From Propionivibrio dicarboxylicus (GTDB lineage: Bacteria > Pseudomonadota > Gammaproteobacteria > Burkholderiales > Rhodocyclaceae), in contig NZ_FNCY01000008.1 in the NCBI RefSeq assembly GCF_900099695.1, positions 88,785 to 152,784 on the forward strand: a stretch of DNA of 64,000 nt, read 5' to 3'. Numbering within the stretch: the first letter of the stretch is position 1; the number at the start of each line of letters is the position of its first letter. The notes beneath the pieces are model-generated. The model ran no database searches. It saw only the letters and a program-made list of their open reading frames with translations, and was not told the DNA's origin. Position numbers and translations under genes: made by a program. Positions 15,945-63,332 of the stretch are shown in pieces.

Positions 15945-17774
15945 ATGGCCCAGCACACCGAGGTTTCGCTCCCCGACGTCCGCTATACCCGGGCCGATTT
16001 CGCCGCCCTGCGCGCCTATCTGCAGCGACTCCCGCTCGGCCGCATCGCCACGCTCTACTACACCGAGGACGATCTCGAGCGCCTTGCCTGCGATTCTGAG
16101 AGCGCGCTCCGAGACCGCCTAGAGACGATGCGCGACCGCCTGGTCATCGAGGCGAGCCAAACCAACCCGTATCTCGCCGACATGCTGCAAAACGCCCGGC
16201 GCAGCGGCCTGTGGTCGCCAAAGCTGGTGGATTTTCTGGTCAGGGCTGGCGAAGCCGATCGACAAGGGCCCAAACGCGCTGATCTCGTCTCCGCCTGGCT
16301 GCGGCCGCGGGTGGCGGCAGTGTTGCGGGAAGAGTCGGTCCGCACCCTGGGCGACCTGATAGCACTCATCGAGGTCCGGGGGGATGGCTGGTGGAAACCG
16401 GTGCGCTGTATCGGCGCCGGCAAGGCACAACGCCTGGAAACCTGGATGTCCCGTCATGCCGCGACCTTGGGGGAGATACGACGCATCGAGTTGCCGCCGG
16501 TGATTCGTGGCGAGACCATAGAGATCGGTCCGCAGGCACCGTTTCTCGTGCCGCTCGAGCGAATCCGGCTCCCGGAGGCGCTCAGCGGTCGGCAGGGACG
16601 CAACCGCGCCAACAATTACTGTCAGATCTCTGCACGCAACGATCTCGATGCCATCGACGCCTATCTCTATCGTTTCCGCGCCAACGAAAAGACGCAGCGG
16701 GCCTATCGCAAGGAGCTGGAACGCTTTTTACTGTGGTGCATCATTGAGCGTGATACGTCGATGTCCTCTGTTTTCCAGGAGGACTGCGAAGCCTATAAAG
16801 ATTTTCTGGCCGTCCCGGGCGAAGCCTGGATCGGACCACGGGCCTTGCGCCACAGCCACGACTGGAAACCCTTTGCCGGCATTCCCTCGGCCTCTTCGCA
16901 ACGCTATGGTGTGCAGGCGATCCGAAGTTTTTTTGAGTGGCTCGTCAATGTCCGTTATCTCGCTGGAAATCCGTGGCTGACGGTCGCCGATCCCGCCGTT
17001 GCAAAGCCTCTGACGCCGATCCAGATTGATAAAGCCTTGCCCAAATCCCTTTGGGAAAAGCTAAGTCGCAGTGGTGGTTTGCTCGACCAAATGGCCGCCA
17101 TTTCCCCCGAAGATCTCGCCCAACGCTATCGTCTGCGCGGAGCCTCCCGGAAAATCAACCTGGCTGCCCAGTTCCGGCTCGTCAAAGCCGCGCTGTTGTT
17201 GCTCGGCGACGGCGGGCTGCGCCGTGAAGAGGTGGCATTTGCCGTGCGCCATCACCTCAAACCGATTCCGGATTCATCGCTGTGGGAACTTGACGTCCTC
17301 GGAAAAAGAAACAAGTGGCGGACCGTTTTTTTACCGAACCGGGTGATTGATGCGCTTCGCGCCCACTGGGTCGACCGTGACCTCGATTTTAGTTTTGCGA
17401 TGGTCGATACCCCCCTGTTATCCCCATTAGTATCCCCTCCTACCCCGGATGCACAGACCAAGCACCTCTCAGAAAGTGGTCAATTGCGCGATTCCGGCTT
17501 CAGCCAGGACGGTCTCTACCGCGTCATCACCACGGCGCTGAAGCGAATTGCTGACGAAGAGGTTCTCGATCTCGAGGCCGACGAGCGAGAGTTGCTTCGG
17601 AACACCCATCCGCACATGCTTCGTCACACGTTCGGAACGCAAGCGGCAGCCAGTCAGGTTCCGCTCGACGTCCTGCAACGCGTGATGGGGCACGCTAGCC
17701 TTCAAACCACGACGATCTACGTACAGGCGGAAAAGCGGCGCAGCATCGAGGAGATGGGCAAGTTCTTTGGTTGA
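15945..17774 (+). CDS. Tyrosine site-specific recombinase (phage-integrase family)
   Basis: Large integrase of 609 residues. An N-terminal module of about 200 residues ends in a helix-hairpin-helix-like segment (WKPVRCIGAGKAQRLETWM). A SAM-like core-binding domain follows (FRANEKTQRAYRKELERFL), then the catalytic domain. The catalytic set is complete: Arg near 426 in GGLRREEV, HMLRHTFG near 557, MGHASLQTT, and Tyr near 592 in TTIYVQAEKR. Such long recombinases are common on betaproteobacterial plasmids and islands, where they resolve multimers or integrate the element. Here it is convergent with the rep gene and sits beside parAB and an iteron origin, so it most likely belongs to the same plasmid-derived block. 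Confidence 0.88.
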   Translation: MAQHTEVSLPDVRYTRADFAALRAYLQRLPLGRIATLYYTEDDLERLACDSESALRDRLETMRDRLVIEASQTNPYLADMLQNARRSGLWSPKLVDFLVRAGEADRQGPKRADLVSAWLRPRVAAVLREESVRTLGDLIALIEVRGDGWWKPVRCIGAGKAQRLETWMSRHAATLGEIRRIELPPVIRGETIEIGPQAPFLVPLERIRLPEALSGRQGRNRANNYCQISARNDLDAIDAYLYRFRANEKTQRAYRKELERFLLWCIIERDTSMSSVFQEDCEAYKDFLAVPGEAWIGPRALRHSHDWKPFAGIPSASSQRYGVQAIRSFFEWLVNVRYLAGNPWLTVADPAVAKPLTPIQIDKALPKSLWEKLSRSGGLLDQMAAISPEDLAQRYRLRGASRKINLAAQFRLVKAALLLLGDGGLRREEVAFAVRHHLKPIPDSSLWELDVLGKRNKWRTVFLPNRVIDALRAHWVDRDLDFSFAMVDTPLLSPLVSPPTPDAQTKHLSESGQLRDSGFSQDGLYRVITTALKRIADEEVLDLEADERELLRNTHPHMLRHTFGTQAAASQVPLDVLQRVMGHASLQTTTIYVQAEKRRSIEEMGKFFG

Positions 17775-17901
17775 TCGGCAGCGGCTATCCACAAAACCTG
17801 TGGAAAATCCTTTGCACAAAGAGGCCGAAATACCCGCTGCTTCTGGTGTTGCCTGCCTTGCTGAAAGAACAGGCATTGGATTGTGCAATCCAAATTTAAA
17901 C

Positions 17902-17924
17902 GGGGGATTACCCGGTAATCCCCC
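17902..17924. terminator. Strong inverted repeat between convergent recombinase and rep genes
   Basis: GGGGGATTAC and GTAATCCCCC pair around a CCG loop. The position between two converging gene ends suggests a bidirectional terminator, although there is no long T-run. Confidence 0.5.
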
Positions 17925-17938
17925 CCTTGTGTTCGCTG

Positions 17939-19189
17939 TTAGCAAATCCCAGAATCGATCAGCCACACACCTAAAGCCTGCCTGACCATTGGGCTCTTTT
18001 TCGACTTCGCGGCGTGCGCTCGGATAAAAGGGGTTTGCGAGACAAAGGAGGAAAAGACTCTCTGCCTTTCGTCTTCGGCGTGGTCGTCGAACCACTTAAG
18101 AGCCGCATCGATCTTCTCCCTTTTCTCGTTTGAAGCAGGAGAATCGATCTGCAAAGCCTGCTTCGTCTCAATGTCCGTTTGAGGGCGTGTTCCGGCCTGC
18201 TTCGCGTCCGCATAGCGCCTCTTCACCGCAGTCCGGAAAAATGCAGCGATGCTCGTGATGGGTGAAAGGCTTGAGTCACGGGCTCGAGCACTGACGAGAT
18301 CGAGCGTTTTCACCAAAAACTGTTCATCGTGTTTGGCGAACAAATCCTCGGCTTCTTTTGGATAAATGCCAATATCAACGATTCTTTTGATCAGAGCCGT
18401 GTCGATCACGGGCGGAGGAGGTAGCTCGAGAGATCCTTGCGCGCGGAGAAACACCTTGAATTGGAGGTCTGTGACTCGGCGCCCATTCTTGTGTTCGACC
18501 ATCTCAACTTGGATGTCGGTCGTTTCGATCTCGGCCAGCGCCGGCTTCAGCGTATCGCGCTTGAAATATTTGTACTCTGGTTTCTCTGTTGCTATTGGCG
18601 TTCCGGTCAGCACCTCGTGCCACCATTCCCAAGGCTCTCTCCTCGTCAGATGACTAGGGTTGGTCGCATAGCGTTTACAGTTTTCGTAGAGAGCTGCGCC
18701 AGCGTTTGTTTTCAGAGAAGTTAGATAGTAAAGAGAGAGTCTCGTAAAAAATTCTGGCGAGCGAAGAATTTCCTCAGTTGCGGGGTGCAATCCCCATCCA
18801 ACCATCGTTGGTCGCTTTCGTTCGCCAGGGATGATTTTGACGCTTGCGACCAGAACGTCAGACGAAAACCCTTTCGTGCTATCGGTGATGATCTTGATGT
18901 CCTGGAGCTTAAGGAGGGTGTCCTTGAGTAAAGCAGCGTCGTCTGAATTGAATGCGGCGTCCTTTGCCAGCTCAGATAGCGGGAGCCAATAGAGGGACTT
19001 GAACACTTCGGCACCTTCGGGCGCCAAATCACCCGGCGCTCCCAATCGCTGCGTGTGATAAAGCAAGACGTTGAAGACTTTTCGCCCCAAGAGAGACAGG
19101 GATCCTCCGCGCGCAACACGTGGAGCAATGATCTCGTTCGCTTTCTTGAACTCTTTTTTTTGGGGGACGGGAAGGTTTTCTTTACCCAT
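17939..19189 (-). CDS. Plasmid replication initiator (Rep_3 superfamily)
   Basis: Initiator that binds iterons and opens the plasmid origin. 416 residues. The N-terminal winged-helix region has LLGRKVFNVLLYHTQRLG, the usual Rep_3 opening, and LYYLTSLKTNAGAALYENCKRY matches the second winged-helix core. A long charged C-terminal extension (from about residue 260) is less conserved. One iteron-like copy, GGTGAGCTTTTTCGGCGTC, ends right at its start codon (19191-19209), where Rep binding would autoregulate expression. parB and parA lie upstream on the same strand and the main iteron cluster is at 21.05-21.33 kb. The protein looks intact. Confidence 0.85.
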   Translation of the reverse strand: MGKENLPVPQKKEFKKANEIIAPRVARGGSLSLLGRKVFNVLLYHTQRLGAPGDLAPEGAEVFKSLYWLPLSELAKDAAFNSDDAALLKDTLLKLQDIKIITDSTKGFSSDVLVASVKIIPGERKRPTMVGWGLHPATEEILRSPEFFTRLSLYYLTSLKTNAGAALYENCKRYATNPSHLTRREPWEWWHEVLTGTPIATEKPEYKYFKRDTLKPALAEIETTDIQVEMVEHKNGRRVTDLQFKVFLRAQGSLELPPPPVIDTALIKRIVDIGIYPKEAEDLFAKHDEQFLVKTLDLVSARARDSSLSPITSIAAFFRTAVKRRYADAKQAGTRPQTDIETKQALQIDSPASNEKREKIDAALKWFDDHAEDERQRVFSSFVSQTPFIRAHAAKSKKSPMVRQALGVWLIDSGIC

Positions 19190-19190
19190 A

Positions 19191-19209
19191 GGTGAGCTTT
19201 TTCGGCGTC
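19191..19209 (+). promoter_or_regulatory. Single iteron-like site at the rep start
   Basis: GGTGAGCTTTTTCGGCGTC differs from the main iterons by one base in the T/A region. It abuts the rep start codon and is well placed for autoregulation by Rep. Confidence 0.65.
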
Positions 19210-19236
19210 ATTGGGGGGTGTACAATTTGGACACCC

Positions 19237-20115
19237 CTAGAAGCGGAACCCTTGTTTTTCAAGTTCGGCCTGCAATGCTTTCTCAAGCGCTACGAAATCG
19301 ATTCCTTTTGCGGTGATCTTTATGTTGTCGATGCCGCGATTTAGTTTTCCGATCGTCTTTCCGGCTTTGTCGAGGACTCGCGTTTCCTGTCTTGTATGCG
19401 GAGAAACGGCCGGTCGAATGAGCCAGGCCATGAGCTCCTGTTGCGTCCTGAATTTTCCGCTCGCCAAACGCTCGCAACCTTCGACGACTTTTTCTGCTGG
19501 GTAGACACAGATTGCCTGCGCAGCCGAAGCACCGAGCAGTTGTTTGTTTGCTTCCAACATCTCAAGAACTCTTGATGGAAGTTTTCCAAAGCAGTTATAG
19601 CGGATGACGTCTTGTCGCGTGCGACCAATGAGGCTCGACGCCTCCGAATTCGATTTCACGAAGCCAAGTTCGAAAAGCGATTTGAGTTGTTTAAAAATTT
19701 CGTAATCCGAAAGATCTTCTCTTGCAAGATTGTCAGCAGCCAAAGCCCGTGCAGCGTCTTGATCCGAAAACTGGCGAACGATCGCGGGGATGTCAGTGTG
19801 CCCCAGTCTCTTGCAGGCCTCGTAACGAGTGTGTCCGGCAATCAATTCATAACAACCCTCCGGAACGGGGCGAACAATAACGGGGGAAATCAAACCGTCA
19901 GTGTCGACAATCGAAGACATCAAGTCCTCGATCGCTTGTTCGGTAACTTCTCGCACTTGAAAGGGCGATGGCCGGATCGCGGCGATCGGAATGCGCAACG
20001 CGTCGTTAATCATTTGCCCCATCACCGTGCTCGAACGGACCTCTTCTTCGATCACGCGAGGGTTGCGCCGATTTCTCAATCCCGCTGCAAGATCCTTTTC
20101 GCTAATTTTGCTCAT
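19237..20115 (-). CDS. parB: ParB-family partition protein
   Basis: CTP-dependent centromere-binding protein that works with ParA to segregate a replicon. 292 residues. The ParB/Srx fold includes SPFQVRE and the nucleotide-binding block ELIAGHTRYEACKRLG (the GERRxRA-type motif). An HTH follows in SEASSLIGRTRQDVIRYNCF. The start overlaps the ParA stop by four bases (ATGA), indicating coupling. I found no canonical parS palindrome close by; the iterons or an unrecognised site may serve. Confidence 0.87.
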   Translation of the reverse strand: MSKISEKDLAAGLRNRRNPRVIEEEVRSSTVMGQMINDALRIPIAAIRPSPFQVREVTEQAIEDLMSSIVDTDGLISPVIVRPVPEGCYELIAGHTRYEACKRLGHTDIPAIVRQFSDQDAARALAADNLAREDLSDYEIFKQLKSLFELGFVKSNSEASSLIGRTRQDVIRYNCFGKLPSRVLEMLEANKQLLGASAAQAICVYPAEKVVEGCERLASGKFRTQQELMAWLIRPAVSPHTRQETRVLDKAGKTIGKLNRGIDNIKITAKGIDFVALEKALQAELEKQGFRF

Positions 20116-20900
20116 TTACTATCCTTCGGCTTGCTCTCCAGCCCTGTAATTGACATCATTTCTCGGGCAATGCCAACGACGGCGCGTGATACGTTCGAGT
20201 CTCTTTCGAGTTGGAGAACAGTCTTGTTTACGATCTGCCCTTTATCCACGTCGGTCGTGAGTGGCATCGTGTTTTCAAGAACGCGTTCGTAGTACTCACT
20301 GGCTGCCTCTTGCACTAATCGGCAAACCTTCTTTCTCGAATCGTGGCGAGTGAGAACGGCTCCGCCAAATTTCAATCTCGGGTTTGCGATTTTCGCTTGG
20401 TGAATGAACGCCACTAAATCATCAGCACCGATCAGGGAAAGCTTTGAACCAGACGACAGCGGCGTGAAAACAAAGTCGGATGCGGCGAGCGCGTTTGCCG
20501 TGAGGAAACTCAGGGCTGGCGGTGTGTCCAGGATAATTACGTCATAGACTTTTGTGACCGGCGCAAGCTTCTGCGACAAAAGAGATGTGCTGGCAAACGG
20601 GGTGGCGTGTAGCTGCCGTTCCAAGTTCGCGAGCTTCAGCGAGCAACCGATGAGATGCACACCATCTACAGTGGTCTGTTCGATAACGGCCTGTGCAACA
20701 GAGGTCGAACCGTCTAGAACTTTCTCGAGAGGAACTCCCGGTGTTTCTTCTGCACTGTAGAGCAGCGCTGTGACATTGGCCTGGGGGTCAAGGTCGACAA
20801 CAAGAACGTCAAGACCTTCCCTGGCGAGGGCATCCGCGACGTTCACCGCAAGGGTTGTCTTAGCAACGCCGCCTTTGTGGTTTGCGATAGATATGATCAT
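20112..20900 (-). CDS. parA: ParA-family partition ATPase
   Basis: Walker-type ATPase that positions the replicon by oscillation on the nucleoid. The deviant Walker A motif is KGGVAKTTLAVN (Ala where Gly is usual), the A' region is VVDLDPQAN and Walker B is IILDTPPALS. It is short (262 residues) without an N-terminal HTH, so it is a type Ib-like ParA. The ATG at 20900 gives MIISIANHKGG, the usual family start. A GTG three codons upstream is possible. It precedes parB in a two-gene unit, and its upstream region leads into the iteron cluster. Confidence 0.87.
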   Translation of the reverse strand: MIISIANHKGGVAKTTLAVNVADALAREGLDVLVVDLDPQANVTALLYSAEETPGVPLEKVLDGSTSVAQAVIEQTTVDGVHLIGCSLKLANLERQLHATPFASTSLLSQKLAPVTKVYDVIILDTPPALSFLTANALAASDFVFTPLSSGSKLSLIGADDLVAFIHQAKIANPRLKFGGAVLTRHDSRKKVCRLVQEAASEYYERVLENTMPLTTDVDKGQIVNKTVLQLERDSNVSRAVVGIAREMMSITGLESKPKDSK

Positions 20901-21050
20901 AATTCCCACCGGTTGTTTTCAACGATTCGCAGGTGATTATCTGCTGAAGTTGATAAATGATAGCGGTTGGGCTGAAATAGTCAATGAAAATTGTCTCTAT
21001 GTATATAGCAACTCGTTGTAACTTAATACATAACGCGTCTTGCTATTTAA

Positions 21051-21904: not shown

Positions 21905-22345
21905 TATTAATGCGTGTTGGCGAATTGGGGCAAAACTACGGCGTGTGCACGCTAATGAGTAACGCAGGGATTCGACGATCAGGGCGAAATGGATAACCGA
22001 GACGATTGGTAATGTAGGTTGTGCTCGTGTTCAACGGGCAGCCCTTCGAAAATACCGCCCTCAATTTCCGCAACTCTGGCGTAAAAAAATCGAAGATGAT
22101 TGCGACAGCAGCGGCCCTGTGCAAAAAAGGGGGCTGCTCTCTAGGGTTGTTTCGTCGACTTCTGAAATCATTGGGCGCAATCGGAAATCGTGGAAGGAAA
22201 GGCCGGGATCACGGATCCACGCAGGAGTTTTGCATCCAAACCACATATTATTTAATGAAAATTTAGCCTAAAAATTGATTTCTGCCTGTTTATATACCAT
22301 TATTATGTGACATACACTAACTTTTCATGTGTTAACCATATTTTT
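21905..22345. other. Spacer before hipB, no gene seen
   Basis: Short frames are present on both strands, but none has a motif and a ribosome site. The 80 bases before hipB are AT-rich and probably contain its promoter. Confidence 0.4.
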
Positions 22346-22645
22346 ATGTTATTTGAACTCTCGACCCCTGACGAAATCTCGCTCGAGCTTGCGCGACGTC
22401 TGCGAGAGCATCGGCTCGCCCAAAACCTGACTCACAAGGAACTAGCGGATCGCGCTGGCCTGTCGAAAGGCATGGTGGCGGCCTTCGAGAAAACAGGGAA
22501 GGCTTCGTTCGGCAACTTCATAAAGTTAGTCGTAACTTTGGGCTTGGTTACACAGCTAAACGAGTTGCTCATATTCAAAGCGACCTCGATTAAGCAAATG
22601 GAAATGGCGAGTCACAAGAGGCAGCGAGCACGGAGGTTTCGATGA
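22346..22645 (+). CDS. hipB: HipB-like XRE-family antitoxin and repressor
   Basis: DNA-binding antitoxin that neutralises and co-represses with HipA. The helix-turn-helix is complete: LREHRLAQNLTHKELADRAG followed by LSKGMVAAFEKTGKASF. The ATG at 22346 is chosen because it gives a family-length protein (99 residues); an upstream in-frame ATG adds 13 uncharacteristic residues. Its stop overlaps the hipA start by four bases (ATGA), so the two are translationally coupled. Confidence 0.85.
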   Translation: MLFELSTPDEISLELARRLREHRLAQNLTHKELADRAGLSKGMVAAFEKTGKASFGNFIKLVVTLGLVTQLNELLIFKATSIKQMEMASHKRQRARRFR

Positions 22646-23868
22646 AAAAATTGAGCGTAATTTATGCCGGGTGGAACGAGCATTTCTTGCTGGGGACACT
22701 TGCAGACGACGGATCGCAACTCCTCTTTGAGTATTCGAGCGAAGCCCTCGTCCGAGGGCTTGAGCTATCGCCTATCCACGTAAAACTCCGGTCGCAAGCT
22801 TACGCGGGGTTCCCAGACTTCCTTCTTCGATTACCCGGATTCATCGCAGATGCCTTGCCTGACGGCTGGGGATTATTGCTGCAGGATCGAGCTTTTAGAG
22901 CGAGAGGGTTAAACCCAGCCGATTTGTCGCCTCTCGATCGCCTCGCTTTTGTGGGCAAGCACGCCATGGGTGCTCTTGAATTCGAGCCAGACGGATCAGA
23001 CGCCCTGGAAACTCGCGACGTCGAATTGCTAGCGTTAGCCAATGCGGTGCAGGATGTCTTAGCCGACAAAGACACGGTGTTGCTTGGCCAACTCGCCTTG
23101 ATGGGAGGTTCTCCGCACGGCGCCAGGCCAAAAGTGCTGGTGTTCTACGATCGGGATACAGGTCGGATGTCGAATCTGGACGAGATGGCGGGCGAATCGT
23201 GGCTCGTGAAATTCCCAGCCCAGTCCGAGCACAAGGAAGTGTGCGCCATCGAACATTTGTACGCTTTCATGGCCAAGCAGTGCGGAATCGACGTTCCTGA
23301 AACCGCATATTTCGACATCGGCAAAAAGCTTTCGGCATTTGGCATTGCGCGATTCGACCGAAAGCAGGGAGTGCGGATCCCGGTCCAAACGCTTGCGAGC
23401 CTTCTGCACGTCAATTTTAGGGTTCCGGGAACGCTAAGCTACCGCGAATTGCTGCGTGCAACCCGCGCGATTACCCATGACGAGCGTGACATTAAACAAG
23501 TTTTTTTGCGCTGCGTATTTAACGTCGTGTTCAATAACCGCGACGATCATCCCAAGAATTTTTCGTTCTTACTCAACCAACAAGGGCGCTGGGAGCTCGC
23601 CCCGGCGTATGACGTAACCTTCTGCGAAGGCCCAGGAGGAGAGCATCAGATGGATATTTGCGGGGAAGGGCGGAAACCCGCCCGGCGACATCTTCTTCAA
23701 CTGGCGGCCGAAAACGGGGTTCCGAGAAAGGATGCGGTTTCCAGTATTGACGCTGTTTTAGCGATGGCAAGAGCGGCGCCGGATCTCTTGAAAAACGGGC
23801 GCATCCGCAGAGACACGGTTGGGAAATTGAAGGGGATTATTGGGGAGAATGCGGCACGGTTGGTGTGA
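22642..23868 (+). CDS. hipA: HipA-like serine/threonine kinase toxin
   Basis: HipA kinases phosphorylate a cytoplasmic target (GltX in E. coli) and induce growth arrest. 408 residues. The N-terminal subdomain includes GFPDFLLRLPGFIADALPDGWG. The glycine-rich loop is MGGSPHGARPKV near residue 155, the catalytic segment is NNRDDHPKN (Asp near 301), and the metal site is LAPAYDVTF. All key residues are present, so the toxin should be active. It is the second gene of hipBA and fits the addiction cargo of the plasmid-like block. Confidence 0.87.
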   Translation: MKKLSVIYAGWNEHFLLGTLADDGSQLLFEYSSEALVRGLELSPIHVKLRSQAYAGFPDFLLRLPGFIADALPDGWGLLLQDRAFRARGLNPADLSPLDRLAFVGKHAMGALEFEPDGSDALETRDVELLALANAVQDVLADKDTVLLGQLALMGGSPHGARPKVLVFYDRDTGRMSNLDEMAGESWLVKFPAQSEHKEVCAIEHLYAFMAKQCGIDVPETAYFDIGKKLSAFGIARFDRKQGVRIPVQTLASLLHVNFRVPGTLSYRELLRATRAITHDERDIKQVFLRCVFNVVFNNRDDHPKNFSFLLNQQGRWELAPAYDVTFCEGPGGEHQMDICGEGRKPARRHLLQLAAENGVPRKDAVSSIDAVLAMARAAPDLLKNGRIRRDTVGKLKGIIGENAARLV

Positions 23869-27266: not shown

Positions 27267-27941
27267 ATGAAAACCCGATTACTCAAAGACGCGCTCTACG
27301 AGCAGGTTGCCCGAATCGGCAAAGCGGTCTCCAGTCCGAAACGACTGGAGATGCTTGAACTGCTTGCGCAAGGCGAAAAAACCGTTGAAGCGCTGACGGA
27401 AGAACTGTCAATTGACGTCAAGCTGACCAGCGCGCATCTGCGAACGCTGAAGGAAGCCCGTCTAGTGGTGCCACGGCGTGATGGCCGATACATCTATTAC
27501 CGACTCGCCGGCAAAGATGTAGCCAATCTGTGGGTTAATCTCAGGGAAGTGGCCGAAGAGCACCTCGTCGAATTGAAACTGGCACTGCGACAGATCTCGG
27601 AGAGTCCATCGCAACTGGTAGCGGTCAGTCGGGCGGCGCTTCTGGAACAAGTGATAAGCGGCGACGTGGTCGTCATCGATGTTCGGCCGCAGTCGGAGTA
27701 CGACGAGGCACACTTGCCGTTTGCCCGCTCAATGCCCTTGGTCGAACTCGAGAAGCGCCTTTCCGAACTCCCGACGGACAAGGAGATCGTCGCCTATTGC
27801 AGAGGACCGTTCTGCCTGCTGTCCGATGAAGCAGTTGCTTTGCTGAGCGCTCGCGGTTACAGGATACGCAAGATTTCAGACGGTGTCAGCGAATGGCAAG
27901 CCGCCGGGTTGCCCGTCGAACACAACTCGTGCGAGACATGA
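27267..27941 (+). CDS. ArsR-family regulator fused to a rhodanese domain
   Basis: 224 residues. Residues about 1-95 form an ArsR winged helix (VSSPKRLEMLELLAQGEKTV, VKLTSAHLRTLKEARLV). Residues about 120-220 form a rhodanese domain (VVVIDVRPQSEYDEAHLPFA) with active Cys in YCRGPFCLLS. The rhodanese probably handles sulfane sulfur, so the fusion is a candidate direct persulfide sensor. The inverted repeat just upstream fits autoregulation. It heads a unit with a methyltransferase (5 bp gap) and a DsrE-type protein, which suggests sulfur or thiol stress; arsenic is the alternative because ArsR and methyltransferases also occur there. Confidence 0.87.
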   Translation: MKTRLLKDALYEQVARIGKAVSSPKRLEMLELLAQGEKTVEALTEELSIDVKLTSAHLRTLKEARLVVPRRDGRYIYYRLAGKDVANLWVNLREVAEEHLVELKLALRQISESPSQLVAVSRAALLEQVISGDVVVIDVRPQSEYDEAHLPFARSMPLVELEKRLSELPTDKEIVAYCRGPFCLLSDEAVALLSARGYRIRKISDGVSEWQAAGLPVEHNSCET

Positions 27942-27945
27942 CAAC

Positions 27946-28521
27946 ATGAAGGGGCGTGAAAGTGGCATGCCGGAGGAGGCCTACTGGGAAAGTTTCTTCG
28001 ATGCGGACAGGGCGGTTGAAACATTGCTAGGGGACTCTGTCCTTCAAGGCGATCTCGTTGAATTTGGCTGCGGCTACGGCACGTTCACGCTCCCCGCAGC
28101 CCGACGTATCACTGGCAAGGTTACTGCACTAGACATTGAGCCTGACATGCTCGCATCGCTGCGCTGCAAGGCTGAAGCAGGCGGATTGCCCAACATTCAC
28201 CCGGTTCTTCGCGATTTTGTGGCGCACGGTACCGGCATTGCTGATGGTTCCCAGGCACACGCCATGATCTACAACCTGCTGCATTTGGAGAATCCCCACG
28301 CATTGTTGGCCGAAGCGCATCGAATCCTGCGACCCGCTGGCGTTCTTTCCGTCATCCATTGGCGAAGCGACATTCCTACCCCGCGTGGGCCGTCATTGGC
28401 TATCCGCCCCAGTTTGGATCAATGCCGACGCTGGATGGTGCAGGCAAGATTCGAGTCCATTGAGTTGATTGATTTGCAGCACTGCTGTCCGTTTCATTTT
28501 GGCTTGATTGGGCGACGCTGA
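27946..28521 (+). CDS. Class I SAM-dependent methyltransferase
   Basis: 191 residues. The SAM site is LVEFGCGYGTFTLPAARR with ALDIEP as the acidic motif II, and the late ILRPAGVLSVIHWRSD matches motif III. The acceptor cannot be read from the sequence. The start may instead be the ATG at 27967 (MPEEAYWESFF), which fits homologue starts slightly better. It follows the ArsR-rhodanese gene by four bases and precedes the DsrE-type gene by 28 bp, so all three are probably co-transcribed. Confidence 0.8.
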   Translation: MKGRESGMPEEAYWESFFDADRAVETLLGDSVLQGDLVEFGCGYGTFTLPAARRITGKVTALDIEPDMLASLRCKAEAGGLPNIHPVLRDFVAHGTGIADGSQAHAMIYNLLHLENPHALLAEAHRILRPAGVLSVIHWRSDIPTPRGPSLAIRPSLDQCRRWMVQARFESIELIDLQHCCPFHFGLIGRR

Positions 28522-28549
28522 TTCAGGCGAACACAAAGGGAGACTTGCC

Positions 28550-28906
28550 ATGAAAATTCTGCTCATCTTCAACCACGAACCCTACAACGGGACCGATGTC
28601 ACCTGGAACGGCCTGCGTCTCGCCGGAAAACTGGCGGAAGGGGGTCACGAGATCCGTCTCTTCCTGATGAATGATGCAGTCGATATGGCGCGCGATTCGT
28701 GCCGTCCGCCGGCCGGTTATGACCAGGACTTATCGCGGATGTTGAAAGACCTGATTGTCGGCGGTGTAACGGTCAAGGTTTGTGGCACCTGCATGGCGCG
28801 TTGTGGCATCTACAAGAATCAACCGTACTTCGAGGGCGCCGAAAAGTCGACGATGCAGGCTCTCGCCGACTGGGTCGTCGAGAGCGACAAGGTCATCACC
28901 TTCTGA
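28550..28906 (+). CDS. DsrE/DsrF-like family protein
   Basis: Small cytoplasmic sulfur-carrier-type protein of 118 residues with the DsrE fold opening MKILLIFNHEPYNGTDVTWNGLRLA. A Cys cluster, KVCGTCMARCG, sits where related proteins carry the persulfide-accepting Cys. The ATG at 28550 is preferred because AGGGAG lies seven bases before it and the fold begins there. Downstream of ArsR-rhodanese and methyltransferase, it may accept or relay sulfane sulfur. Confidence 0.82.
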   Translation: MKILLIFNHEPYNGTDVTWNGLRLAGKLAEGGHEIRLFLMNDAVDMARDSCRPPAGYDQDLSRMLKDLIVGGVTVKVCGTCMARCGIYKNQPYFEGAEKSTMQALADWVVESDKVITF

Positions 28907-33846: not shown

Positions 33847-34398
33847 TCACCGCACGCCAAGACTGCTTATTGACGATGATCCGAGCATGTATTCCCGGAC
33901 CAGTTCGCGCGCCCGATGCAATCGACTCTTGATGGCACCTGTCTGTTCGCCCAGACGCGTCGCGATTTCTTCGATCGTCAGTTCCTCGAAGTCACGGAGC
34001 AGGACGACTTCCAGATAATGCGCCGGCAGCGATTCCAGTGCAGCGGCAAGATCCATGCGCAATTCGTTGTCGCTCCGGCTCGCCAGCTGTTGCTCGACGA
34101 CTTCTTCGTCCAAAGGATCGTGGCGAAACATCATGCGTTCCAGCTTGCGGCATTCGCGCTTAATCACGGTAAACAGCCACGACGAGAAGGCAGCGGCCAC
34201 CTTGAGCGCTTTTACCTTGCGTGAAACGACCATCAAGGATTCCTGCACGGCGTCATCCACGTCGCTGGCCTGGCAATGCTTGTAGGCGTAGCGACGGGCA
34301 TCGGCCTTGCAGACGGCGAGCAGACGGGTAATCGCCAGCGGATCGCCGGTCTGCGCTGCATAGATGAGATTGTCGCGTTCGATTCCAGTGACGGCCAT
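33847..34398 (-). CDS. ECF-type RNA polymerase sigma factor
   Basis: 183 residues. Region 2 is DVDDAVQESLMVVSRKVKAL with SSWLFTVIKRECRKLERM. Region 4 is ALESLPAHYLEVVLLRDFEE with LTIEEIATRLGEQTGAIKSRLHRA. No anti-sigma gene of the usual membrane type is adjacent, but a tiny DUF2892 membrane protein gene precedes it by three bases. It is the last gene of a probable operon trx - ccdA - DUF2892 - sigma, which faces away from the Cys-rich peptide gene. It is therefore a candidate activator of that divergent promoter region. Confidence 0.85.
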   Translation of the reverse strand: MAVTGIERDNLIYAAQTGDPLAITRLLAVCKADARRYAYKHCQASDVDDAVQESLMVVSRKVKALKVAAAFSSWLFTVIKRECRKLERMMFRHDPLDEEVVEQQLASRSDNELRMDLAAALESLPAHYLEVVLLRDFEELTIEEIATRLGEQTGAIKSRLHRARELVREYMLGSSSISSLGVR

Positions 34399-34401
34399 GG
34401 C

Positions 34402-34611
34402 TCAATCTCCCTTATCGATCCTACTTCGGGCAATCGCACAGACAGGGCAGCCGCCGAGCAGCCCATTGATCACCAGCATCAGGCCGACCGCACCGGCAAT
34501 GACTGCGGCGTTGGATAGACCCCAGCTCGAATAGGCGAATATCAGCAAGCCCGCTCCGGCGAGGACGCGAATAACGCGTTCCCATGTTTTGTTCTCTTTA
34601 GCGCACTGCAC
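34402..34611 (-). CDS. Small membrane protein of the DUF2892 type
   Basis: 69 residues with two hydrophobic segments (VIRVLAGAGLLIFAYSSWGL and AAVIAGAVGLMLVINGLLGG), like the membrane part of YgaP. The end carries CPVCAIARSRI, a CxxC pair on the membrane edge. The stop is three bases from the ECF sigma start, so expression is linked. It could be a thiol-responsive partner of the sigma factor, but that is inference. Confidence 0.72.
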   Translation of the reverse strand: MQCAKENKTWERVIRVLAGAGLLIFAYSSWGLSNAAVIAGAVGLMLVINGLLGGCPVCAIARSRIDKGD

Positions 34612-34670
34612 TTTGAACTCCTTTCATGAATTTGGTTGCGACGCACTCGACGTATCGGCGGCTTCTCGCC

Positions 34671-35402
34671 TCAATAGCGCGTCGTCAGGTGGGTAAGCCA
34701 GGCCGGCGACTGTTCGACCAACCACGCCTCCATGGGTCGATCGAGTCCGGAAAGCATCAAGACCGCAATGGCGATCATAAATCCACCGAGAAGCGTCTTG
34801 CCGGTCTTGCCGGCCTGCATCAGACGACCACGCAAGCGGACCATTGCTGAGCGCGAGACATAGGCCAGGACGATGATCGGTAGCGCGGCGCCGATGCCGA
34901 AAACCCCCATCAGCAACGCCACTTGCAGCAGATGCGTGCCTTGGCTGGCCAGCACAATCGCGGCGCCCAATGTCGGGCCGACGCATGGGCTCCAGACGAC
35001 GCCGAGCACCAGGCCGATGACAAACTGCCCCCACAGGCCATCGAAGCGGATATTGGCGATCAGATTGCTGCCGGCGTTACCGATGTTGGCGGTTGCCGAG
35101 GCGAAACGCTGTTGAAGCGCACCGGAAATCAGCACCAGACCAAACACCCCGAACAGCACGGCGCCGACATTGCGAATGATCGACGGATCGAAGCCGAAGG
35201 CTGCGCCGGCACTGGCGAGGAATGTACCAACCAGGGCATACGAAATCGCCAGCCCGCCGGCCAGGACCAGCGGCGCCTTGGGATGAGCGTTCGTCGCCGA
35301 GCCGAGCAGGATCGGGATGATCGGCAGTACGCACGGCGATAGCGTCGACAGGACGCCGGCGACCAGGCCCAATCCGTAGGAAGCGATGCCGAAGTCCATC
35401 AC
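34671..35402 (-). CDS. CcdA-like thiol:disulfide transmembrane transporter
   Basis: 243 residues, about six membrane helices. Conserved Cys lie in LSTLSPCVLPIIP (helix 1) and VVWSPCVGPTLGA (helix 4), the pair that passes electrons across the membrane in the CcdA/DsbD family. It would carry reducing power from cytoplasmic thioredoxin to the periplasm. The start overlaps the stop of the secreted thioredoxin-like gene by four bases, so the two act together. Likely clients are periplasmic Cys-rich proteins such as the one encoded divergently at 35977. Confidence 0.86.
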   Translation of the reverse strand: MMDFGIASYGLGLVAGVLSTLSPCVLPIIPILLGSATNAHPKAPLVLAGGLAISYALVGTFLASAGAAFGFDPSIIRNVGAVLFGVFGLVLISGALQQRFASATANIGNAGSNLIANIRFDGLWGQFVIGLVLGVVWSPCVGPTLGAAIVLASQGTHLLQVALLMGVFGIGAALPIIVLAYVSRSAMVRLRGRLMQAGKTGKTLLGGFMIAIAVLMLSGLDRPMEAWLVEQSPAWLTHLTTRY

Positions 35403-35788
35403 TGAACCGTGGACTTGACGAGTTTCTCGATGCCGTCACGCGAGGTGTCGCCGACCGATCGCGCCACTTCCTTAGTGCCTTTGTAGCCAATCAAGGTGCT
35501 CTGCATGGTGACCTTGTAAGTCTTGAGCAAGGGCTTGCTGGTATCGAAGTCGATCATCAGTGTCGTGACGTCCTTATACGCAGGCTGTCCCATCAGGTCG
35601 CTGACGATGGGAATCTGCGTCTTGCAGGTGGGGCACCAGGTGGCATGGATATGGAGCAGCACCGGCTTCCCCGCCTGCGTCAATGCATCGAAAGTCTTTT
35701 GGTCATACGTCTTGATTTCCCCCGCCAACGTCATCGATGCCGAGGCAAGAAGGGAGAGCGCGAGAAGCGATGATTTGATGAGTTTCAT
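35399..35788 (-). CDS. Secreted thioredoxin-like protein
   Basis: 129 residues: signal peptide (LLALSLLASASMTLAG), then a thioredoxin fold with active site HATWCPTCKTQIP near residue 50. The usual cis-Pro region reads TMQSTLIGYKG, so the cis-Pro before the last strand is replaced by Ser/Thr, which is atypical. It is probably kept reduced by the CcdA-like protein encoded next. First gene of a minus-strand unit that ends with the ECF sigma factor, and divergent from the Cys-rich peptide gene. Confidence 0.83.
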   Translation of the reverse strand: MKLIKSSLLALSLLASASMTLAGEIKTYDQKTFDALTQAGKPVLLHIHATWCPTCKTQIPIVSDLMGQPAYKDVTTLMIDFDTSKPLLKTYKVTMQSTLIGYKGTKEVARSVGDTSRDGIEKLVKSTVQ

Positions 35789-35822
35789 GGTGTCGTCCTT
35801 TCAGGTCACGAAGGGCCAGTCC

Positions 35823-35929
35823 TTCACTCACTAGGAGTCGGCAAGAACACCAATCGATTCGTAGCAACGGAAAAATATTTTTTGTCCGCTGCGAATCCCT
35901 TGCCGAAGTCAGCCCCTCTTAGTGGGTGA
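35823..35929. promoter_or_regulatory. Shared divergent regulatory region with inverted motif pair
   Basis: The element CTTGCCGA...TAGTGRGTGA occurs in both orientations. On the + strand it is at 35899-35906 with 35920-35929. On the minus strand it is TCGGCAAG (35838-35845) with TTCACTCACTA (35823-35833). The two parts are 13 bases apart in one copy and 4 in the other, so they are not a plain -35/-10 pair. The region separates the thioredoxin-led operon from the Cys-rich peptide gene. Confidence 0.45.
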
Positions 35930-35976
35930 GGCAACCCCTCGCCGCGTTTGCGGAACCTTTACCCAAGGAGATACAC

Positions 35977-36213
35977 ATGAACACTTCACTCAAGATGGCT
36001 TCTCTTGCCGCCCTCACTGCCGCAACGCTGGCGTTGCCCGTCGCCGCCGCCGACATGCAATCTTCGGCTGCAAAGTGCCAACCTAAGGCTGGGATGGCAC
36101 GCTGCCGGGCCAAGTCCGGTGCCAAATGTGCCAGCCGGACCGATGCCTCTGCCAAATGCGGCGCCCGGAAATGCGCCCCGAAGTGCGGTGCCAAATGCGC
36201 GCCAAAGAACTGA
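35977..36213 (+). CDS. Secreted Cys/Lys-rich small protein
   Basis: 78 residues. A signal peptide (SLAALTAATLALPVAAA) precedes a mature part of about 54 residues with seven Cys, each preceded by Lys or Arg (KCQ, RCR, KCA, KCG, KCA, KCG, KCA). The end, KCAPKCGAKCAPKN, is repetitive. It has a good ribosome site (AAGGAG). This resembles low-complexity Cys peptides of bufferin or HvfA type, thought to bind copper or other metals, but no DUF692/DUF2063 maturation genes are nearby. The next gene starts inside its stop codon (TGATG). The divergent CcdA/thioredoxin pair could keep its Cys reduced. Function inferred. Confidence 0.78.
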   Translation: MNTSLKMASLAALTAATLALPVAAADMQSSAAKCQPKAGMARCRAKSGAKCASRTDASAKCGARKCAPKCGAKCAPKN

Positions 36214-36920
36214 TGCAACTCGTCACGCAGCGGAATTCTGAACTGGCCGGCGACGCTCAGCGTGCTGTTGGCCAGCGCTTGCTGGAAACCTACGCGAGAT
36301 TGGCCGAGCAAAATAAACATTTGCTCACCGATGTTATGGGGGGCCAGATGCCGCATCAGTTGCATCACTACCCGGAAGGCGATGCCGTCGATCATGATCA
36401 TGGATATCAGTGGTTCTATCATTCCCACGCGCCGGAGGACCGGCCCGATTCGACGGAGCATGGGCATTTCCATCTCTTCGCCGGGAAAGCGTGTTGGACT
36501 CATCGCCACAATTCGACCGGAGAGCGCGCATTCCAAGCATTGACCGGCAGACCAGCGGAGTTGGCCAATACACGCCATCTGCTGGCTATTGGTTTGAGCG
36601 CAAAGGGCGTTCCAAGCAATTTGTTTACCGTCAACAGCTGGGTGACGGGCGACATGATGCTGAGCGCGGACGCGACGGCCATGCTGCTTGAACAAATGAA
36701 GTTGAACACCGGCTACGAGACAATCGATACGGTCATCGAATGCGTGGTCTCGCTCTGCCGTAACCAGATCGAGCAATTGTTAGCAGCGCGGGACCAGGTC
36801 TTGTTCTCGTGGGAGTCGGCCAATGTGCTGGCCGACCGAAATCTTGAAGTGCTGTCCGAAACGACGATTGATCTCGATGACTTGCTGCAATCGCCCCGCC
36901 GGAATGAATCTTTGGGCTAA
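36213..36920 (+). CDS. His-rich protein of unknown function
   Basis: 235 residues. A striking central region carries HHYPEGDAVDHDHGYQWFYH and then EHGHFHLFAGK and WTHRH, giving over a dozen His in about 60 residues, so a metal-binding or radical/hydrolytic centre is plausible. No signal peptide or membrane segment. It reminds me of the DUF6969 family, but I am not certain. The ATG at 36213 overlaps the stop of the Cys-rich gene by one base; an ATG at 36195 is also in frame. The coupling implies the two products work together. Its stop overlaps the end of the convergent HD-GYP gene. Confidence 0.7.
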   Translation: MQLVTQRNSELAGDAQRAVGQRLLETYARLAEQNKHLLTDVMGGQMPHQLHHYPEGDAVDHDHGYQWFYHSHAPEDRPDSTEHGHFHLFAGKACWTHRHNSTGERAFQALTGRPAELANTRHLLAIGLSAKGVPSNLFTVNSWVTGDMMLSADATAMLLEQMKLNTGYETIDTVIECVVSLCRNQIEQLLAARDQVLFSWESANVLADRNLEVLSETTIDLDDLLQSPRRNESLG

Positions 36921-58025: not shown

Positions 58026-59690
58026 TCAGGCGGTCGGCAGCTTGGCCGGCGTTCTCGGATCGACGTTCGCCTTGAGTCCGCCGCTGTAGCTGCTGACCTC
58101 GAAACCGTTCTGGGCGAGTACGCGCGCGGCGAAATAGCTCATCTTGCCGAAGGCGCAGAGTGTCACCACCGGCCGGTTTTTGTCGAGCTTGCCGAGGTTG
58201 GCGCGCAGCGTCGCGAACGGGATGTTGAGCACCGTGGCCGGCGCCGGATAGGCCTCGGCCAGCGGTTTGCCGCGCACGTCGACGATCTGCACCGCCGGGT
58301 CGGTCGGCAGGGTTTCGGTATGCTTGACGAGTCCGTCGCGGCGGTTGCAGGCGGCGAAGCCGGCCAGGTTGATGATGTCCTTGGCGGACCCGAACGGCGG
58401 CGCGTAAGCGAGTTCGAGGTGGCAGAGGTCCTCGATCGTCATCTCGGCGGCGATCGCCGTCGACAGCACGTCGAGGCGCTTGTCGATGCCTTCGAAGCCG
58501 GTCGCCTGCGCACCGAGGAGGCGGCCGGTGCGGGCGTCCCAGACGATCTTGAGCGTCATCGGCTTGGCGCCCGGATAGTAGGAGGCGTGGTGGCTGTCGT
58601 TGACGGTGACCGAGGCGAACGGGTACTGGAGGGCGCGCAGCCGCTTTTCGCTCCAGCCGGTGATGCCGGCGACGACGTCGAAGGCGCGGACGATGCCGGT
58701 GCCGATCGAGCCGGGGTAGGGTCGGGCCTTGTCGCCGAGGAAAATGTGGTCGGCGGCGACGCGGCCCTGGCGGTTGGCTGGGCCGCCCATCGGCACGGTC
58801 GTGCGGCCGGGGACGACGCGGTCCTGCGTTTCGACGACGTCACCCGCAGCGTAGATGTTGGGGTCGGAGGTCCGCTGGAAGGCGTCGACGACGATGTGGC
58901 CGCGCGCGCCGAGTTCCAGCCCGGCCCGCTTGGCGAGGTCCGAGTCCGGCTTGACGCCGATCGAGAGGATGACGAGATCGGCGTCGAGCACGGCGCCGGA
59001 GTTGAGTTCGCAGCCGACGTGGCTGTCGCCCGGCCGGAAGGCGCGGATGCCGTCGCCGAGGAAGACTTCGACGCCGTTGCGGCGCAGTTCGCTGTCGAGC
59101 AGCGCGGCCATCGGCGCGTCGAGCGGCGGAATGACCTGCGGCATCAGTTCGACGAGCTGGACCTTCATGCCGCGCCGCTGCAGCTGCTCAGCCATCTCGA
59201 GACCGATGAAGCCGGCGCCGATGATGACGGCGCGCATGCCGGTGTTGGCTGCGGCGATGATGCGGTCCATGTCCTGCAGGTTGCGCAGGGTGAAGATGCG
59301 TGGGTCGTCGATGCCCGGCAGCGGCGGACGCACTGGCGAGGCGCCGGGCGAGAGCATGAGCTTGTCATAGCGCAGCCATTCCGTCCTCCCGCTAACCAGG
59401 TCTTTCACTTGCAGTTTTTTCCCGGCGTGGTCTATGTCAATTGCTTCGCACTGTGTAAACACATTCAGATTCAGCTGGTCTTTGAGTGAAGACGATGTTT
59501 GGACAGCAAGTACATCGCGAGCCGGAATCTCTCCGCCGATGTGGTAGGGCAGGCCGCAGTTGGCGAAGGAAACGTCGGGGCCGCGCTCGATCAGCGTGAT
59601 TTCGGCGCTTTCGTCGAGACGGCGTGCCCGTGCGGCAAATGATGCTCCTGCGGCAACGCCGCCAACGACCAACAGCTTTAATGCTCCCAT
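58026..59690 (-). CDS. CoA-disulfide reductase/rhodanese fusion (FAD-dependent)
   Basis: 554 residues. N-terminal flavoprotein with FAD loop VVGGVAAGASFAARARRL, the redox Cys in SFANCGLPYHIGGE (active CoA-disulfide-reductase type), NAD loop VIIGAGFIGLEMAEQL, and FAD-binding IYAAGDVVETQD. Residues about 455-550 form a rhodanese domain (VQIVDVRGKPLAEAYPA) with the Cys in TLCAFGKMSYFAARVL. These fusions (CoADR-RHD) reduce CoA persulfides or polysulfides. It heads the cydPABX-arsR operon, linking sulfane sulfur removal with a sulfide-resistant oxidase. The palindrome at 59739 lies in its promoter region. Confidence 0.88.
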   Translation of the reverse strand: MGALKLLVVGGVAAGASFAARARRLDESAEITLIERGPDVSFANCGLPYHIGGEIPARDVLAVQTSSSLKDQLNLNVFTQCEAIDIDHAGKKLQVKDLVSGRTEWLRYDKLMLSPGASPVRPPLPGIDDPRIFTLRNLQDMDRIIAAANTGMRAVIIGAGFIGLEMAEQLQRRGMKVQLVELMPQVIPPLDAPMAALLDSELRRNGVEVFLGDGIRAFRPGDSHVGCELNSGAVLDADLVILSIGVKPDSDLAKRAGLELGARGHIVVDAFQRTSDPNIYAAGDVVETQDRVVPGRTTVPMGGPANRQGRVAADHIFLGDKARPYPGSIGTGIVRAFDVVAGITGWSEKRLRALQYPFASVTVNDSHHASYYPGAKPMTLKIVWDARTGRLLGAQATGFEGIDKRLDVLSTAIAAEMTIEDLCHLELAYAPPFGSAKDIINLAGFAACNRRDGLVKHTETLPTDPAVQIVDVRGKPLAEAYPAPATVLNIPFATLRANLGKLDKNRPVVTLCAFGKMSYFAARVLAQNGFEVSSYSGGLKANVDPRTPAKLPTA

Positions 59691-59738
59691 AACAATTCCT
59701 TTATAAAATGGCCGGTTGATGCAGATGGACTAATATAG

Positions 59739-59750
59739 TGGCAAATGCCA
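59739..59750. promoter_or_regulatory. Palindrome TGGCAAATGCCA upstream of the CoA-disulfide reductase operon
   Basis: TGGCA and TGCCA arms flank AA. On the minus strand it is followed by a TATATT -10-like box, as at the arsR site (46646), so the palindrome would lie in the promoter. Confidence 0.6.
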
Positions 59751-59777
59751 AAAACAGCAAAGACAGTTCGCAGCGAT

Positions 59778-60752: not shown

Positions 60753-60770
60753 GGGTTCCTCTTCGATTTT

Positions 60771-61208: not shown

Positions 61209-61210
61209 TT

Positions 61211-61250: not shown

Positions 61251-61274
61251 GGCGGAAAAATCAAGTTTTTTTCT

Positions 61275-63308: not shown

Positions 63309-63332
63309 CAAACTGAACCAAGGAGAAATTCA

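Follow-up and report, generated by a model that had tools for sequence, protein, structure and literature searches.

In the 64,000-nucleotide stretch of Propionivibrio dicarboxylicus DNA analysed here (the window), a Cys-rich exported peptide is encoded together with a protein of the DUF6969 family (PF22308), and this pair, which recurs in many bacteria, looks like an alternative to the known copper-trapping peptide systems. Evenly balanced between belief and doubt, we interpret the locus as an MNIO-independent, bufferin-like system, that is, a putative thiol buffer for metals or metalloids under the stress control of an ECF sigma factor, with DUF6969 as cytosolic maturase or chaperone of the peptide. 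The locus, which seems to be plasmid-borne, comprises two divergent operons (Table 1). The first-pass annotation had placed the secreted thioredoxin (Trx), the CcdA-type transporter, the CxxC membrane protein, and the sigma factor opposite the peptide operon, and all four genes were present at correct coordinates.

Table 1. Features of the peptide-DUF6969 locus (positions within the window).
Feature	Position	Strand	Basis
ECF sigma factor (Sigma70_r2 / r4_2)	33847..34398	-	Pfam E 5.6e-14 (r4_2), 2.4e-07 (r2)
69-aa membrane protein, YgaP-like TM domain, C-terminal CPVC (CxxC)	34402..34611	-	PF11127 E 8.7e-11
CcdA/DsbD-type transmembrane reductant transporter	34671..35402	-	PF02683 E 9.5e-15
Secreted thioredoxin-like protein, active site WCPTC	35399..35788	-	PF00085 E 4.2e-12
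Promoter-like motif, trx-ccdA-TM-sigma operon: GCTACGAATC-N20-CCTAGTGAGTGA	35824..35865	-	Genome motif scan
Promoter-like motif, peptide-DUF6969 operon: GCTGCGAATC-N20-CTTAGTGGGTGA	35888..35929	+	Motif and spacing as at the divergent site
Cys-rich exported peptide precursor	35977..36213	+	Sequence; homologues upstream of DUF6969 in clade loci
DUF6969 (PF22308) protein, without signal sequence	36213..36920	+	Pfam; 100-row alignment; AlphaFold

Peptide precursor and DUF6969 protein

The precursor has a length of 78 amino acids and consists of a 24-aa Sec-type signal (MNTSLKMASLAALTAATLALPVAA) and a mature part of 54 aa. All seven Cys of the mature part directly follow Lys or Arg, which bears out the earlier description of a secreted peptide with seven such pairs; when this part was shuffled 200,000 times, the number was reached twice. 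The signal, as read from the sequence, has an n-region, a hydrophobic core, and an AxA end, and it is conserved among 34 peptides including that of the window. Its identity between loci is 80%, as compared to 46% for the signal of the neighbouring Trx in the same 20 loci, and it was the higher of the two in 190 of 190 locus pairs. On these sequence comparisons, the peptide signal resembles a RiPP leader; conservation of Sec signals can also have other causes. For the peptide, a Pfam search up to E 1 returned no family, DUF2282 included (the library lacked the profile of Buf2), and no NCBIfam family scored above its cut-off. The peptide contains KC pairs and is devoid of EGKCG repeats. A tblastn search of 300 genomes of the order reported 19 genomes, but convincing matches were confined to the own genome and to two relatives (G209, E 2.6e-20; G120, E 4.8e-14), with E values of 9e-4 or worse for the remaining genomes. 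All three genomes with convincing matches are DUF6969-positive.

The TGA stop codon of the peptide gene overlaps the ATG of the following gene (TGATG, 36211-36215), as noted earlier, and translation of the two is probably coupled; an alternative in-frame start of the second gene lies at 36195. Its product (235 aa, 14 His) had been described as a His-rich protein of unknown function. The protein is not an orphan and clearly belongs to PF22308/DUF6969 (E 6e-56, 189.6 bits, gathering cut-off 27), a Pfam family without assigned function; a literature search found no paper on DUF6969 or PF22308. In an alignment of 100 rows the family displays a near-invariant set of His, Asp, and Glu residues (HYPxxDxxD...YHxH...EHGHxHxF...H), including seven near-invariant His, and beyond His the conserved set comprises Asp, Glu, Asn, and Arg. 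An Arg found in 90 of the 100 rows is missing from the protein of the window. The AlphaFold model is confident (pLDDT 92.7). A fold search with two DUF6969 models against the PDB returned no match at E <= 0.001, and the best hit of a profile search among PDB sequences had an E value of 0.1. Since a structural relative was not detected, the enzyme class cannot be read from the fold.

Recurrence of the gene pair

DUF6969 was found in 20 of 300 genomes of the order and 20 of 398 genomes of the phylum. A set of 118 loci was used for the neighbourhood analysis, after removal of the copies L001, L010, and L084 and of the partial match L021; near-duplicates such as L025/L083 and L100/L101 are still in this set. 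Co-occurrence of the two coupled genes in other genomes had been proposed as a test, and the pair passed it: a script detected a Cys-repeat Sec precursor directly upstream of DUF6969 in 73 of the 118 loci (control, no match in 440 kb of distal DNA), and in the clade of the window a precursor homologue lies just upstream in 37 of 39 loci, the window counted. This conservation rules out a chance adjacency. In 14 of these 37 loci DUF6969 could, as in the window, start on the final base of the precursor stop codon. The script detected no precursor in 36 of the 118 loci, 33 of which have at least 1.4 kb of upstream sequence; by eye, at least seven of the 36 do carry one. In one alphaproteobacterial DUF6969 group, which has long flanks and an FGE-sulfatase gene, no precursor was seen, and DUF6969 may therefore act on other substrates. 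An FGE gene lies no more than 5 kb away in 27 loci, of which 20 were without a script-detected precursor directly upstream, and no peptide was seen among the main ORFs listed for the DUF6969 loci on S. meliloti and Azospirillum plasmids.

Several peptide types adjoin DUF6969 across its tree. Peptides with NPC repeats are associated with DUF6969 at the genome level (Fisher p 3e-11 and 6e-10), and 12 genomes, according to our own repeat criterion, have NPC repeats without DUF6969 (3 of 13 in the order sample and 9 of 19 in the phylum sample); two of these 12 cases resemble non-genes. In the nine genomes of the phylum sample neither MNIO nor DUF6969 occurs in the stretch examined around the repeat, and four of them contain an arsenite-methyltransferase-type gene there.

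Regulation and gene neighbourhood

The two promoter-like motifs are near-identical (GCTRCGAATC-N20-CYTAGTGRGTGA) and point away from each other out of the intergenic region. A scan of the whole genome (4.5 Mb) returned these two sites as sole strict matches, the reversed pattern yielded none, and a scan for sigma-70 promoters gave no match. The motif recurs in about 20 related loci, where 23 sites scored at least 14/15, versus none in mono-shuffled loci. Matched motifs in front of both operons, in opposite directions, indicate positive autoregulation; one predicted promoter type precedes both the sigma and the target operon, which is the pattern by which ECF self-regulation is judged. The earlier grouping of the sigma factor with the set gains support, as the shared motif ties the genes to one regulator. 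The locus, as far as the motifs tell, would be an autoregulated ECF unit that includes Trx and CcdA, with the sigma factor presumably as its regulator.

Within the 39 loci of the clade, again counting the window, homologues of the ECF sigma factor occur within 5 kb of DUF6969 in 21 loci and those of the 69-aa membrane protein in 16. CcdA homologues are located near DUF6969 in 24, Trx homologues in 23, cytochrome c genes in 13, and a bufferin-type cluster in three of the clade loci. On a Burkholderia glumae plasmid, two DUF2282-DUF692 clusters are at most about 15 kb away from the DUF6969 unit. Some DUF6969 loci have ArsM, ArsS, or MerA genes nearby. No obvious copper gene was present among 29 proteins of the window scanned; its wider part contains ArsR-rhodanese, DsrE, and rhodanese-oxidoreductase genes. 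In other lineages, YeeE/YedE sulfur transporters and rhodaneses (6-7 of 79 loci per query) and SoxA/TsdA-type cytochromes c, sometimes fused to an NPC repeat, are encoded within 5 kb of DUF6969. Given these sulfur-metabolism neighbours and the FGE genes, other functions of the DUF6969 pair are possible.

Proposed function and alternative interpretations

According to the proposed mechanism, envelope stress, most likely by a thiophilic metal or metalloid, would activate the sigma factor, and the Cys-rich precursor would be synthesized in the cytosol. DUF6969, probably metal-loaded through its conserved His/Asp/Glu set, might recognise the signal region, which is unusually well conserved, in the manner of a leader and modify the Cys repeats, or load them with metal or protect them, prior to Sec export, and could thereby be the counterpart of MNIO plus DUF2063 in bufferins and captophorins. 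In the periplasm, a CcdA-Trx relay would hold the peptide thiols reduced, and the peptide would sequester the metal, with Cu(I) as first guess and Hg(II), As(III), and Cd(II) as further candidates. A more far-reaching version, to which we assign somewhat less than an even chance, is that DUF6969 represents a new enzyme class that modifies peptides in a metal-dependent manner and has a fold unmatched in the PDB. Such enzymes would turn the Cys of KC and NPC repeat precursors into ligands for metal ahead of Sec export and would define an MNIO-independent class of RiPP metallophores across the Pseudomonadota that is partly spread by plasmids.

The coupling of the genes and the conserved His set would also suit a non-enzymatic DUF6969 protein that serves in the cytosol as a metal-binding chaperone, holdase, or metal sensor for the precursor, accompanied by an unmodified, metallothionein-like periplasmic thiol peptide. 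NPC-repeat peptides in the absence of both DUF6969 and MNIO from the stretch examined, and the lack of a recognised enzyme fold, also agree with this interpretation, which we nevertheless consider rather unlikely because the conserved Asp, Glu, Asn, and Arg beside the His are closer to an active site than to a metal sponge, and because a modifying enzyme (MNIO) occupies the partner position in a relative, G037. That the two genes are adjacent through co-regulation or inheritance alone, without their products acting on each other, could explain the loci without a script-found precursor, among them the 20 with FGE neighbours, but appears very improbable in view of the tight gene spacing, the adjacency throughout the DUF6969 tree to peptides of several types, and the genome-level association with NPC repeats.

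The sulfur-related genes near DUF6969 in other lineages and in the wider window raise the alternative that the unit serves sulfur or thiol stress, with the Cys peptide carrying or scavenging sulfane or thiosulfate-derived sulfur in the periplasm and Trx/CcdA as redox partner. However, no such gene directly adjoins the pair of the window, and its clade has Trx, CcdA, and the sigma factor instead, although cytochrome c genes do occur in a third of its loci. Metals or metalloids are favoured by the bufferin-type clusters and by the ArsM, ArsS, or MerA genes that accompany some loci, and the sulfur function is regarded as improbable.

Comparison with known systems

Bacterial metallothioneins and the Csp copper-storage proteins are Cys-rich small thiol ligands, and so is the peptide of the window, but the latter is exported and has a dedicated neighbour gene. 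In bufferins (Buf1/DUF2282 and Buf2), the cluster encodes MNIO, DUF2063, and DoxX, and that of Buf1 also an ECF sigma factor and NrsF. The locus shares with them a Cys-containing Sec precursor as first gene, a dedicated cytosolic partner as next gene, and an ECF sigma factor in the cluster, but has DUF6969 as partner and adds Trx/CcdA. The absence of DUF692 and DUF2063 reported by the first-pass annotation was confirmed, for DUF692 (MNIO, PF05114) by zero matches in the whole genome (98.6% complete) and for both by a scan of nine locus proteins, among which NrsF and DoxX were not found either. Together with the missing DUF2282 match this excludes a classical bufferin. An MNIO encoded elsewhere is no requirement, as the own genome and 21 of 38 DUF6969 genomes have none. 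Some bufferin precursors stand alone (PMC12452194).

Captophorins (oxazolins) are of the HvfA type, with EGKCG repeats and 5-thiooxazoles. The peptide resembles them in the low-complexity Lys-Cys repeats after a Sec signal, and differs in lacking EGKCG and an MNIO/PME1 pair. In PMC12668002, AKCGA is tested among common MNIO precursor motifs; MNIO precursors are reported there to bind Cu, and one group of them is of a Lys-Cys kind. The suggestion that the His-rich protein is a different partner of the peptide is the best reading of these data: in G037, in which no DUF6969 was found, an NPC-type precursor (NPCAAK) lies beside MNIO and DUF2063, and the precursor was apparently swapped to MNIO in place of DUF6969. 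This apparent swap makes the idea of interchangeable partners directly testable. If it is true, exported Cys-repeat metal buffers would represent a general strategy in which one cytosolic partner can stand in for another, and DUF6969 would gain its first testable role. Whereas bufferins and captophorins are defined by MNIO enzymes, this widespread pair follows the same gene logic with an unrelated partner of unrecognised fold.

Gene content and setting of the locus

The first-pass annotation had described a secreted Cys-rich peptide gene coupled to that of a His-rich protein and divergent from thioredoxin, transporter, membrane protein, and ECF sigma factor genes; reading of the open reading frames and Pfam matches confirmed that all of these genes exist. 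The precursor begins with a 24-residue Sec-type signal (MNTSLKMASLAALTAATLALPVAA), and its mature part of 54 residues contains 7 Cys, every one preceded by Lys or Arg. Seven such pairs were reached by 2 of 200,000 shuffles of this mature part. The peptide TGA and the ATG of the DUF6969 gene have one base in common, and the DUF6969 protein scored 189.6 bits against PF22308 (cut-off 27).

Features of the locus and of the surrounding contig (positions in the window)
Feature	Position	Strand	Basis
Cys-rich precursor, 78 aa	35977-36213	+	Sequence
DUF6969 protein, 235 aa, no signal	36213-36920	+	Pfam PF22308, E 6e-56
Secreted thioredoxin, WCPTC		minus	Pfam
CcdA-type transporter		minus	Pfam
YgaP-like membrane protein, 69 aa, CPVC close to end		minus	Pfam
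ECF sigma factor		minus	Pfam
Phage-type integrase, Rep3-type replication initiator, ParB, ParA	15945-20909		

Since the 194,655-bp contig carries genes for a Rep3 initiator, ParB, ParA, and an integrase, it is probably a plasmid, and the DUF6969 locus plasmid-borne. The nearest match of its ParA (62% identical) stems from an Azoarcus plasmid. Elsewhere on the contig, window positions 27267-28903 and 58029-63998 contain sulfur and redox genes (ArsR-rhodanese, DsrE, a rhodanese-fused disulfide oxidoreductase, a SLAC1-type channel, DsbB, and rhodanese), and a HipA-type kinase gene preceded by a small ORF, HTH-like by eye, forms a HipBA-like toxin-antitoxin pair at 22307-23865.

Distribution and predicted structure of DUF6969

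Of the 300 genomes sampled from the order, 20 contain DUF6969, as do 20 of the 398 from the phylum (each count includes the own genome); the 14 control genomes gave no match. When the proteins of 59 near genomes were searched, it was detected in two, the own genome and one of a different genus (G330), with no match in the 27 other genomes of the same genus, several of which are incomplete. GTDB representatives contain at least 567 relatives, of which the best 80 were retained. Among 72,556 plasmid records, 166 had a match, mainly from Sinorhizobium (103), Burkholderia (47), and Azospirillum (13).

In an alignment of 100 DUF6969 proteins (window numbering from 36213), H70, H72, H85, H87, P54, F138, N141, V144, and R193 are invariant, and H52, H83, H122, D57, D60, E82, and D194 are conserved in at least 96%; position 91, Gly in the window protein, is Arg in 90. 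AlphaFold models of the window protein and a distant member (pLDDT 92.7 and 96.3) consist of a long N-terminal helix, a sheet, and C-terminal helices, with the His residues on or bordering sheet strands, whose positions suggest that these residues may meet in space. Foldseek comparison of both models with the PDB retrieved no chain at E ≤ 0.001 (best E 1.3 and 0.29). Searching PDB sequences with a profile gave no match better than E 0.1.

Conservation of the gene pair and its putative promoters

The two coupled genes co-occur in other genomes as well: a script detected a same-strand Cys-repeat ORF with signal-like start directly upstream of DUF6969 in 73 of 118 loci; in 9 others such an ORF lay at another place within 3.6 kb. 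No precursor was detected in the remaining 36, of which three had too little sequence and at least seven contain a precursor by eye (L011, L038, L041, L061, L065, L068, L073), as the script is strict; it gave 0 matches on 440 kb of control DNA more than 4.5 kb distant from DUF6969. The genomes of L026, L027, and L029 have an NPC-repeat match 1.6–1.8 kb from DUF6969, just beyond the fetched flank. Repeat types comprised KCAPKCGAKC, NPCAAKNPCAAK, NPCGPSNPCGPK, NPCNPCAAKKGC, and PCVKTKAG, the last an unusual repeat in the upstream precursor of L009. A quick tree of the 100 proteins placed the window inside a 38-row clade (SH-aLRT 99) with Lys-Cys (KC) peptides in 36 rows and none detected in two; seven peptide labels were assigned by hand, and the program warned of some long branches outside this clade. 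Among all 39 clade loci (the window, L008, L013, and L042-L077), the peptide lies just upstream of DUF6969 in 37, with a possible window-like DUF6969 start at the last base of the peptide stop in 14 of these; none was located in L054 or in L060, which sits at the end of a contig.

Between the two divergent operons of the window lie two outward-facing copies of GCTRCGAATC-N20-CYTAGTGRGTGA; 47 nt separate the end of one from the peptide ATG, and 35 nt the end of the other from the thioredoxin ATG. The 4.5-Mb genome has no further strict match, and none at all to the reversed control pattern. Relaxed sites (at least 13/15 over a GCGAAYC-like box, 18 nt, and a CTCTTAG box) precede the peptide in 21 loci and occupy the divergent position in 21, window counted; at 14/15 or better, 23 sites were found in the loci versus 0 in mono-shuffled loci. 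Many loci have an additional copy on the minus strand at a greater distance, plausibly upstream of the sigma factor gene, and stray sites are few (L065, L118, one in the window). From its sequence, this arrangement looks like an autoregulated ECF unit. Within 5 kb of DUF6969, the 39 clade loci (window counted) contain homologs of CcdA in 24, thioredoxin in 23, sigma factor in 21, and the YgaP-like protein in 16, with the first three together in 17; a SoxA/TsdA-type cytochrome c occurs in 13. MerA-like matches lie at this distance in four clade loci, and a mercuric reductase near DUF6969 in L056 exceeds the NCBIfam MerA cut-off.

Role of DUF6969

DUF6969 likely acts on the precursor. This reading is suggested by gene order, a signal-bearing Cys precursor being followed by a leaderless partner, and by substitution: in genome G037 (L176 = G037:C7; also L163) an NPCAAK Sec precursor is followed by MNIO (DUF692; PF05114, E 5e-103) and DUF2063, and DUF6969 was not found in that genome. 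MNIO was not found in a genome-wide search of the own genome, nor in 21 of 38 DUF6969 genomes, and is therefore dispensable, which also argues for DUF6969 as maturation partner. In the order sample, 10 of 13 NPC-repeat genomes contain DUF6969 (Fisher p 3e-11; G011 counted on a 36-residue partial match of 29 bits). A genome counted as NPC-repeat when two or more pattern matches lay on the same strand within 2 kb; single matches (37 of 300 order and 52 of 398 phylum genomes in all) are partly noise, and the reversed control pattern matches a few as well. Besides G037, the NPC-repeat genomes of this sample without DUF6969 are G267, where the match is a tandem DNA repeat, and G124, where no peptide ORF was seen.

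The peptide signal looks like a recognised leader and thus further favours a maturation partner, since in the 20 clade loci where both signals were readable its mean identity is 80%, compared with 46% for the thioredoxin signal, while the mature parts diverge similarly (63 and 61%). The peptide signal is the more conserved in 190 of 190 pairs, kinship of loci ignored. The peptide finder, which relied on an ALTAA-like core, overlooked 5 of the 39 clade loci, although L055, L059, and L062 among these have such a core. Bufferin-type clusters near DUF6969 units point the same way: a DUF2282-MNIO-DUF2063-DoxX set is nearby in 3 of 39 clade loci, and a Burkholderia glumae plasmid has two DUF2282-DUF692 clusters near a set comprising thioredoxin, CcdA, sigma factor, a zf-HC2 protein (likely an anti-sigma factor), a KC peptide, and DUF6969. 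The same island (L244, L246) contains arsenosugar genes (ArsS, two glycosyltransferases) and an MTA phosphorylase gene.

DUF6969 may nevertheless have further substrates, and the unit could possibly act in sulfur handling, because of NPC-repeat genomes without DUF6969, loci with FGE-sulfatase genes, and lineages in which DUF6969 is paired with YeeE/YedE sulfur transporters and rhodaneses. In the phylum sample just 10 of 19 NPC-repeat genomes contain DUF6969 (p 6e-10). Eight of the other nine belong to one family (f79), by our guess Alphaproteobacteria-like, and neither DUF6969 nor MNIO occurred in the stretches fetched from all nine. An arsenite-methyltransferase-type gene shares the peptide's stretch in 4 of 8 f79 stretches (L232, L234-L236) and likewise in two extra ones of that family (L241, L242); five of these six have a radical SAM gene, and the gene pair of L232 scores above the NCBIfam thresholds of both ArsS and arsenite methyltransferase. 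These arsenic genes possibly form a third partner set for NPC peptides. In each of the six stretches an NPC-repeat peptide is accompanied by a cytochrome c fused to NPC repeats, and none of the six contains DUF6969 or MNIO. FGE-sulfatase genes lie within 5 kb of DUF6969 in 27 of 79 non-clade loci, only seven of which have a script-detected precursor directly upstream; in L079, L105, L107, L110, and L113, with this gene close upstream, no Cys peptide was seen by eye either. The FGE protein of L117 retains a CGVCR motif near its end.

Proposed mechanism and comparison with known systems

In the proposed mechanism, the sigma unit would drive both operons from the two matched promoter motifs, DUF6969 would act on the precursor, and the peptide would, judging from the protein families, be exported and then reduced by CcdA and thioredoxin. 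Covalent modification of the peptide is a tentative suggestion; a metal or metalloid is the probable target. Literature searches found no paper on DUF6969 or PF22308 (most subscription papers being outside reach), none or unrelated ones for the peptide repeat strings, and by topic either an MNIO landscape paper or nothing on a DUF6969-peptide system. There is a real chance that DUF6969 represents a new enzyme class.

Among known systems, bufferin clusters have the order precursor, MNIO, partner (PMC12452194), and the peptide-DUF6969 pair shares this precursor-before-partner order. Cytochrome c fused to NPC repeats is encoded close upstream of DUF6969 in L006, L023, L028, L030 (SoxA/TsdA type by Pfam), L082, L103, and L118, paralleling the Buf1/cytochrome c fusions described in the same paper. 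Captophorins, according to PMC12668002, include a Lys-Cys precursor group, shared in kind with the KC peptide of the window, and bind Cu; by this analogy, copper would be the first candidate metal.
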